This document shows, in pieces, positions 20,430-22,613 of a stretch of DNA of 64,000 bases (the first letter of the stretch is position 1; each line of letters opens with the position of its first letter). Source of the DNA: Halonotius pteroides (GTDB lineage Archaea > Halobacteriota > Halobacteria > Halobacteriales > Haloferacaceae). Under the pieces are notes generated by a model. It was not told the DNA's origin. It saw only the letters and a list, made by a program, of their open reading frames with translations, and did no database searches. The translations under genes and the position numbers were made by a program. The stretch lies in assembly GCF_003605635.1 (NCBI RefSeq), contig NZ_QMDW01000006.1, positions 62,001 through 126,000 on the forward strand, written 5' to 3'.

Positions 20430-21053
20430 CTACGCGTCGCGCTCGCGAAAGCCGTCGATTCCGCGGTCGTGAAGGGTTTTTGAAACCTCGCCGACGCCGC
20501 CCTGCAGCGAATCGTGGTACTCGATCAGTGCCTGCTCGATCTCGTCGTGTTCGCGCGCGATGATCTGACCCGCTGAGAGCCCAGCGTTGAACGATTTACC
20601 GGCATCAACTGCCGTGAGCGGCGCGCCGGTCGGCATCCCGATGACGCTATCGACGGATTTCTCCTGTACCGGGACACCGATCACTGGAATCGGGTAGGCG
20701 ATCGAGGCGGTCATATTCGGCAGATCGGCGGATTTCCCGCCCGCGCCGGCGATGATCACATCCAGCCCACGGTCGGCGGCGGTCTCGCCGTAGACAGTCA
20801 TCAGTTCCGGCGTCCGGTGGGCCGAAACGACGTAGCTCTCGAAGGTAAATCGACTTTCAGGCGGATTCTCAACATCCGTCTGTTCGGCGAAGCCGAGTTC
20901 TTCGAGGGCGTCGTACGCGCCGGCCATCACGTCGAGATCTGAGTCCGAGCCCATAATGATGCCAACGTCCGGCGTCGCCGCCGAACCACGCTGTTGGTCG
21001 GCTTCGGCTTCGAGTCGATCCATCAACGCTTGGACTTCAGGTGCGGTTGTCAT
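20430..21053 (-). CDS. purE: N5-carboxyaminoimidazole ribonucleotide mutase
   Basis: Converts N5-CAIR to CAIR in purine synthesis; 207 aa. The signature VGIIMGSDSDLDVM is followed by SYVVSAHRTPE (catalytic His) and IAGAGGKSADLPNMTAS. The first ~28 residues are a hydrophilic extension and the last ~40 form a helical tail. It pairs with purK upstream on the same strand, but a 396-bp gap with a long inverted repeat lies between them. Confidence 0.95.
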   Translation of the reverse strand: MTTAPEVQALMDRLEAEADQQRGSAATPDVGIIMGSDSDLDVMAGAYDALEELGFAEQTDVENPPESRFTFESYVVSAHRTPELMTVYGETAADRGLDVIIAGAGGKSADLPNMTASIAYPIPVIGVPVQEKSVDSVIGMPTGAPLTAVDAGKSFNAGLSAGQIIAREHDEIEQALIEYHDSLQGGVGEVSKTLHDRGIDGFRERDA

Positions 21054-21138
21054 TGGCCGTGAATGCTCCCAGCGGCGGCAAGTGCGTTGCGGTTGTGGCT
21101 ACTGGGCGTGTTCAGATACATCGGAAAAATTGGAACCT

Positions 21139-21412
21139 TCTCGAAAGCCCCGAGTCGCTCCGGTCGAGAGCCTCGCCGCGCGCCTCGTTCGCTCCGCTCA
21201 CTGTGGTGCTTGCGTCGGCCGTCTTCCCGGAGCGACTCGCCCCTTTCAGTCCCGCCCGACTGCGGCTGCTCGGCCTGCCAACGCGGGTGGGACTGAAAGG
21301 GGCCGGCGGCTCGGCGCGCCTGGACGACGCAAGCACCGCAGGAGTGAGCACCGCGAACGACAAGGAGCGCAGCGAGTCCCGGGAGCCGAGCCGTCGGGGG
21401 CTTTCGGGGTGG
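21139..21412. repeat. Long imperfect inverted repeat between purK and purE
   Basis: Two ~120-nt arms face each other around a 27-nt centre (21258-21284). The innermost part of the arms pairs almost perfectly: GCCCCTTTCAGTCCCGCCC (21239-21257) with GGGTGGGACTGAAAGGGGC (21285-21303). The outer ends are CGAAAGCCCC (21142-21151) and GGGGCTTTCG (21397-21406). Between them the arms share blocks such as ACGCAAGCACC, AGTGAGC and GCGAACGA. I recall GGGACTGAAAGGGGC-type units as dispersed in haloarchaeal genomes; this would be two units head to head. No ORF of note lies inside. Confidence 0.8.
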
Positions 21413-21449
21413 TCTCGATACAATCGCAGTGAGCTAAACAGTACCGTGG

Positions 21450-22613
21450 CTACTCGTCGACGAAGGTGACGCCGTCGCGGAGCGATTCCGCGCGATCAAG
21501 GAGTGCGTCATAGTCGTCGGCGTCGGCAGCGTCGGGATCGGTGACGGTGATATGGCCCATCTTCCGGAGCGGGCGGGCCTGTTTCTTGCCGTACCAGTGG
21601 AAGTGAGCATTCGACGATTCAAGCACGCTGTCGACGTTGTGCAGCGTTGCAGACTCCGGTTCGTCGACATCGCCGAGGAGGTTGACCGAGACCGTCGGCT
21701 CGGCGAGATCAGTCGATCCGAGCGGCCAGCCGAGGACGGCACGAACGTGGGTTTCGAACTGTGAGGTGTGCGCGCCTTCGATCGTCCAGTGGCCGGAGTT
21801 GTGTGGCCGCGGTGCGATCTCGTTGACGAGAATGTCGCCGTTCTCAGTTTCGAAGAGCTCGATCCCGTAGACGCCGTAGCCGTCGAGGAACTCCAGTACG
21901 TCAACGGCGACCTCGCGGGCGCGATCACGTACGCTGTCGTCGGTGCGCGCTGGCGAGACGCTGGCCCGAAGGATTTCGTCCTCGTGGATCGTCTCGGTGA
22001 CAGGATACGTAGCGACGCCGTCGGGCCCTTTGACGCCGATCACCGAGAGCTCACGCTCGAAGGGGACGAACGCCTCGGCCATCGTGTCGACGCCGAGTTC
22101 GTCGAGGGCGGCAGCCGCGTCGTCGGGCTCCTGTACTGGTGTGTTACCCCGGCCGTCGTAGCCGCCCTCCCGTGCTTTCAGCATTACACCGTCGAGTTCC
22201 TCAACTGCCAGTTTGAGATCTTTCTCGCCGCCGACCCCGATAAAATCCGGTACCGGAATCCCGGCGTCAGCGAGGGCCTCCTTCTGGACGAGTTTGTCCT
22301 GAATCGTCCGGAGGGTGCCGGGATCGGGATTGACCGGCACGTCATGCTCGTCGGCGACATCTGCAAGCAGGTCGGGATCGGCGAGTTCGATCTCGAAGGT
22401 GAGGGCGTCGCTTGCGGCGGCGAGTTCCCGTACTGCGTCGGGATCGTCGAACTCGCCGACGATCTGCTCGCGGGCGACAAGCGAGGCCGGACACTCGGGC
22501 GTCGGATCAAGCACGATTACCTCGACGCCAAGCGGCGCGGCGGCTTCGGCGAGCATACGACCGAGTTGACCACCGCCGACGACGCCGAGCGTCGGGCCGG
22601 GAAGCGTTGTCAT
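21450..22613 (-). CDS. purK: N5-carboxyaminoimidazole ribonucleotide synthase
   Basis: ATP-dependent carboxylation of AIR to N5-CAIR, the step before PurE; 387 aa, ATP-grasp fold. The N-terminus GVVGGGQLGRMLAEAA binds nucleotide; LKAREGGYDGRGN is the ATP-grasp glycine loop, and GIELFETENGDILVNEIAPRPHNSGHWTIEG carries the metal ligands Glu and Asn. The ATG 22613 is supported by CTTATTTTC at 22635-22643, 26 bp upstream; the open frame continues far upstream without homology. Confidence 0.95.
   Translation of the reverse strand: MTTLPGPTLGVVGGGQLGRMLAEAAAPLGVEVIVLDPTPECPASLVAREQIVGEFDDPDAVRELAAASDALTFEIELADPDLLADVADEHDVPVNPDPGTLRTIQDKLVQKEALADAGIPVPDFIGVGGEKDLKLAVEELDGVMLKAREGGYDGRGNTPVQEPDDAAAALDELGVDTMAEAFVPFERELSVIGVKGPDGVATYPVTETIHEDEILRASVSPARTDDSVRDRAREVAVDVLEFLDGYGVYGIELFETENGDILVNEIAPRPHNSGHWTIEGAHTSQFETHVRAVLGWPLGSTDLAEPTVSVNLLGDVDEPESATLHNVDSVLESSNAHFHWYGKKQARPLRKMGHITVTDPDAADADDYDALLDRAESLRDGVTFVDE

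Follow-up and report, generated by a model that had tools for sequence, protein, structure and literature searches.

The window, a stretch of 64,000 nucleotides from Halonotius pteroides, contains the genes purK and purE, both on the minus strand, with purK located upstream of purE. Pfam agreed with the identities given to these genes in a preliminary description of this DNA (PF02222 and PF17769 for purK, PF00731 for purE). Downstream of purE, on the same strand, lies a gene for chain 3 of NADH dehydrogenase (PF00507; 19906-20319). A repeat search of the window recovered, where it had been reported, a long inverted repeat between purK and purE (21139-21412), which exceeds chance. Its inner arms (21201-21258 and 21284-21341) are 76% complementary at a spacing of 25 nt, and two more inverted pairs are present, one within each arm of the whole repeat. 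These arms are two complete units separated by 37 nt, each of which forms its own hairpin. The genome contains the core motif GGACTGAAAGGG 15 times and a backward control sequence not once. RNA folding, proposed earlier as a check, gave -174.3 kcal/mol for the 274-nt RNA (z = -7.5, equalled by 0 of 200 shuffles), and the opposite strand is stable as well (z = -6.3 relative to shuffles); a strong fold would span the purK-purE gap on both strands.

The element reaches beyond the inverted repeat. When same-genus copies were aligned, conservation continued past the units, with both sides finishing in GG...TGTTCAGATA, and this alignment and the flanking duplication placed the full span at 21104-21445. 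The features of the locus are as follows.

20430-21053, minus strand: purE (PF00731, E = 2.1e-37), with its ATG 50 nt past the element end
21095-21103, plus strand: target-site duplication GTGGCTACT, purE side, identical to 21446-21454
21104-21445, no strand assigned: whole MITE in its two-unit (double) form, 342 bp
21104-21119, plus strand: terminal inverted repeat (TIR) GGGCGTGTTCAGATAC, purE side, matching the TIR GGYRGTGTTCAGATAAG of full-length IS6-type ISs in congeners
21143-21252, minus strand: module A, GGACTGAAAGGGGC...GGGGCTTTC (covariance model match of 122 bits), 3' end facing purE
21253-21289, no strand assigned: 37-nt centre separating modules A and B, similar to the centre of other double copies
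21290-21405, plus strand: module B, the same module as A (covariance model match of 110 bits), 3' end facing purK
21430-21445, minus strand: TIR GGTACTGTTTAGCTCA, purK side
21446-21454, plus strand: target-site duplication GTGGCTACT, purK side, including the purK stop codon (21450-21452, TAG on the minus strand)
21450-22604, minus strand: purK (PF02222 and PF17769), coordinates given for the 3' end, start approximate

A search for flanking duplications, which had also been proposed, found the identical 9-mer GTGGCTACT on both sides of the element; this perfect 9-bp duplication consists of the 8 expected bases and one chance match. As the purK-side copy contains the stop codon, the insertion left the PurK protein intact. 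No transposase is encoded inside the 342 bp: the longest overlapping ORFs, of 103-158 aa, span the fold, and IS6-type transposases here measure ~213-219 aa.

The preliminary description had offered a dispersed haloarchaeal repeat and a MITE as possible origins, and both proposals were borne out: the element has IS6-type ends and a duplicated target, the site is unoccupied in one congener, and many copies exist. With a covariance model, 12 copies were counted in the species' own genome and 5, 93, 15, and 42 in the other same-genus genomes, the range being 12 to 93 among those at least 90% complete; a zero-mismatch pattern for IS6-type TIRs was overly strict for finding copies. Among the 21 elements treated as double, 13 carry a duplication of at least 7 of 8 bases, where 0.34 would be expected from random pairing of flanks. 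The single-unit elements are ~218 bp long, with a recognisable duplication in only 5 of 20 (0.17 expected). Full-length ISs of the congeners measure ~697 bp and have a PF13610 transposase, TIRs like GGYRGTGTTCAGATAAG and exact 8-bp duplications. Such transposases are present in three congeners (G002, G003, and G004), and the TIRs of the window element match ISs in two of them (G003 and G004). The window element thus has the related TIRs and the 8-bp duplication that define MITEs of the IS6 family, and lacks an internal transposase as these do. The autonomous relative in the same genome that also belongs to this definition was not found, as no PF13610 transposase was detected in the species' own assembly (115 contigs), where an assembly gap may explain the absence. 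By comparison of genomes, the empty site in G003 and the dispersed copies point to mobility. The module gave no match in phage records and 22 matches in plasmid records, all of them haloarchaeal by name.

The purK-purE site itself varies within the genus. In G003 the two genes lie ~44 nt apart and the site is empty, and G002 and G004 carry a homologous single-unit element at the same place, with different ends and flanks. Some form of the element is present in the gap in 3 of the 4 same-genus genomes with a purE match, the window included. In three genomes of other genera (G025, G019, and G020), the spacer is at most ~75 nt, as measured from the ends of protein matches. Judging by the G003 gap, the different ends and flanks in G002 and G004 and the short spacers elsewhere, the window element seems to have been inserted separately, at a site that was struck in sister species too; alternatively, one element form may have been converted into the other. 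At another, orthologous promoter (L072, compared with L022 and L308), G002 has a double element with a right end of the single type, and the window species and G004 bear single-unit elements; from their sequences, switching or recombination between element forms seems to occur where a site is shared. Part of the genus carries inserted DNA within the purK-purE pair, and the purine genes may be uncoupled thereby.

Full-length ISs of this type lie at a fixed distance upstream of core promoters. We collected 37 IS6-type ISs, each bearing an exact 8-bp duplication, from several families of haloarchaea and examined them with a custom-made TATA scorer and custom-made gene calls. At least one end was found 16-21 nt from a TATA-like hexamer (score of at least 3) in 34 of the 37 ISs; counted per side, this was the case for 39 of 74, versus 4.7% of random positions within these loci (p = 5e-32). 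Five of these ISs, all matches, had been inspected before the threshold was set, and the remaining 32 gave 29 matches; copies within one genome are related elements representing separate insertions. Among the 34 positive ISs, A-rich positions 15-16 and an AT-rich position 38, which were unused in the selection, fit a BRE and a -10 element, and ATG-opened frames are enriched 44-54 nt from the ends (0.20 versus 0.04 per side). As a control, we took from these genomes 15 DDE_Tnp_1 ISs that have TIRs and duplications of 8-9 bp, none of which showed the spacing (0/15; Fisher p = 2e-10). No such promoter targeting is described in the accessible portions of PMC7986276, PMC6807381, and other papers; earlier reports may exist, as the search covered few subscription papers.

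The MITEs follow the same rule. At 59 single-unit loci of G002 and G004, with the right end taken as the unit plus 42 nt, this end lies 40-60 nt from the start codon in 33 of the 45 cases facing one. The downstream genes, 27 of them selected because unit and start are 76-102 nt apart, have the pattern typical of leaderless haloarchaeal genes, with a TATA at -29 to -26, an A-rich BRE at -34 to -32, and an A at -10. Nine of 16 double elements end 48-52 nt from a start codon. Among 15 double-element sides selected for facing a start codon, 14 have a TATA-like hexamer, which in 13 of them is 17-20 nt from the element end. The idea that the module generally points toward genes was rejected for copies outside the genus; the promoter rule belongs to the IS6-type vehicle. 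The window element, at 50 nt from the purE ATG, has the usual spacing of the family. No convincing TATA for purE was found at the predicted place, the best hexamer scoring 2.0 and being located elsewhere. In the sequence upstream of purE (21053-21095), AA is present at the place of the BRE, and only CACTT where the TATA is expected. It is possible that this region is a weak promoter predicted by the insertion rule.

Each arm of the repeat is one copy of a ~115-nt module found across many genera of haloarchaea. Exact matching of GGGTGGGACTGAAAGGGGC gave genome records of many haloarchaeal genera among the matches listed, and the covariance model found the module in 27 of 197 genomes drawn from the phylum, all within the window's own order; with strict filters and at most 18 candidates scored per genome, these counts are lower bounds. 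The alignment of 71 diverse units has 28 pairs, arranged in four helices and 92.5% paired, and both-sided changes occur at 23 of the 28. The covariation score for these units is 0.532, versus 0.159 when shuffled and at most 0.105 when slid, the slid control being somewhat favourable since the alignment and the fold were derived from the same sequences. Conserved parts are the sequences GAAAG/CTTTC and GAA/GA, a GGG/GGG loop, a variable stem of 13 bp and two mismatches, C.C and A.A. Mispairs on the named strand of 220 distinct stems are G.U in 112 cases versus A.C in 19 (p = 3e-17), a bias that shows which strand of the module folds, and in 55 of the 71 units the named strand has a better fold than the complementary one. 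C to T mutation alone as the source of this bias was unsupported, as two conserved unit motifs had 42 G>A and 33 C>T changes. Between orthologous sites the stem differs through compensated changes, one example being GGTTCTCTCG/CGAGAGAACC versus GGCACTCTCG/CGAGAGTGCC upstream of a putative hisG (L008 and L275); gene conversion from other copies could also be the source of such changes.

Covariation on a consensus fold together with a single-strand bias is what marks a structured RNA. Taken with the strand folding and the compensated changes, the covariation and the wobble asymmetry thus argue that the module is under selection to fold as one strand, and the folded strand is probably RNA. An Rfam 15 scan of the copies gave no match to the module, the only hits being to an eL15 leader, which lies in one flank, and to a miRNA, by chance, and its sequence motifs had only chance matches in two unrelated papers when searched in literature text. 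We regard the module as a haloarchaea-wide candidate RNA that is absent from Rfam. Our guess is that the fold insulates the neighbouring gene from read-through.

Given its termini and duplication, a congener with an empty site, the many copies of the family, the matching ends of congener ISs and the stereotyped spacing, the window repeat is very probably a non-autonomous IS6-type transposon, a 342-bp MITE of a promoter-spaced family that inserted between the purK stop codon and purE and duplicated 9 bp there. In the mechanism we envisage, an IS6-type transposase would act in trans on the MITE ends. The target would be set by the promoter complex, TBP/TFB on TATA/BRE, and targeting by this complex would keep the core promoter intact. 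In this family the insertion spacing puts an element end ~18 nt upstream of a TATA-like hexamer and ~46-52 nt upstream of a start codon. The two internal modules are copies of a haloarchaea-wide hairpin selected for single-strand folding, likeliest as RNA, and any effect the element may have on purE transcription and PurE level would be incidental. Tentatively, and at slightly short of an even chance, we extend this to archaeal IS6-type transposases in general, which may target via promoter-bound TBP/TFB and cut just upstream of the BRE, with their MITEs carrying an undescribed, haloarchaea-wide structured RNA module.

The preliminary description had also suggested a cis-regulatory processing or attenuation structure that sets the PurE level apart from that of PurK. 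Such a structure would account for the position in the purK-purE gap, for the very stable fold on both strands and for the presence of some element form in most same-genus genomes, but the site is empty in G003, the spacer is short in other genera, and the target duplication marks the element as an insertion. Because spacers are short (at most ~75 nt, and ~44 nt in the element-free congener) and the dispersed module adjoins many unrelated genes, this found no support as an evolved function, and we consider it highly improbable. A regulator specific to purE is ruled out because G003 has an empty site and relatives have short spacers.

The promoter spacing, in turn, could reflect survival rather than targeting, if nearer insertions are lethal and farther ones harmless and retained. 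Consistent with this, element ends may abut stop codons and rarely lie less than ~40 nt from a start codon, and in other genera the module stays away from start codons but shows no sharp peak. A survival effect, however, would set a minimum distance and not a peak at a single one, and the 15 control DDE_Tnp_1 ISs, which come from the same genomes, lack such a peak, so we think it unlikely that survival explains the spacing. Less easily set aside, though still on the unlikely side, is that DNA rather than RNA is the form in which the module is kept, as a single-stranded hairpin that might serve, for instance, as a signal for a recombinase or for replication. The strand-specific fold with its conserved mismatches, the tolerance of DNA for G.T pairs and the travel of the module in mobile elements all agree with this, whereas DDE transposition through double-stranded DNA is implied by the IS6-type ends and the duplicated targets, and the conserved GAA/GA internal loop resembles RNA.

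Prokaryotic insertion sequences are mostly thought to be loose in their target choice. Ty1/Ty3 and Tf1 of yeast are retrotransposons that insert at a fixed distance from promoters, which is thought to spare genes; the IS6-type family resembles them in keeping a fixed distance of its own from promoters. The finding of 34 of 37 ISs at one TATA distance suggests that the transcription machinery is the landing signal. If insertion is promoter-guided, insertions could mark core promoters, and guidance by TBP/TFB, if true, would be an archaeal counterpart of the transcription-factor-guided integration of yeast.

REP/BIME elements are dispersed palindromic intergenic units, often paired head-to-head, features that they have in common with the window family. 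REPs are shorter and tied to Y1 transposases, whereas the present family has IS6-type ends and a ~115-nt module. The REP/BIME elements of bacteria are listed in PMC2817692. SMR-A of Haloquadratum walsbyi is likewise a non-coding haloarchaeal element of ~110 bp with inverted repeats, but it makes no target duplication and enters IS605/PATE palindromes (PMC3119063), while the window family duplicates its target on the promoter side of host genes. Identity with SMR-A is ruled out by the 9-bp duplication and the host target of the window element. PATE, which is IS605-derived and has neither terminal inverted repeats nor a duplication, is ruled out as well, as the window element has both.

MITEs of the IS6 family were known before: MITEHarch3 and MITEBth2 (ISfinder; PMC6807381) share the IS6-type ends, the 8-bp class of duplication and the lack of a transposase with the present family, as far as the accessible portions of PMC6807381 and PMC7986276 describe them. 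MITEHarch3 was compared with the window family by description. Two IS6-family MITEs of 227 and 336 bp, mentioned in the available part of PMC7986276, are similar in size to the ~218 and 342 bp found here. The authors of PMC6807381 argue for taking the archaeal branch out of IS6/IS26. The covarying module and the fixed promoter spacing do not appear in the descriptions of IS6-family MITEs in these portions of the 2 papers; both are absent from Rfam and from the papers that could be searched.

The module also occurs in other settings. In other haloarchaeal genera (L045, L047, L052, L054, L057, L118, L126, and L325), another conserved stretch rich in hairpins, GCGAGGGAYGAGCGA...GAATCGGYTGGGGAGG...GTGG, lies ahead of it. 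None of the 23 copies with this stretch has an IS6-type right end within 2 mismatches, and by sequence they appear to be a different composite element. Some modules (L012, L018, L021, L004, L119, and L121) contain extra short hairpins, such as TTCACGAGAGCAAGCTCTCGTGA and AACCAGAAATCTCTGATTTCTGGT, nested within the fold at constant positions; it looks as though its loops had taken up small palindromes.
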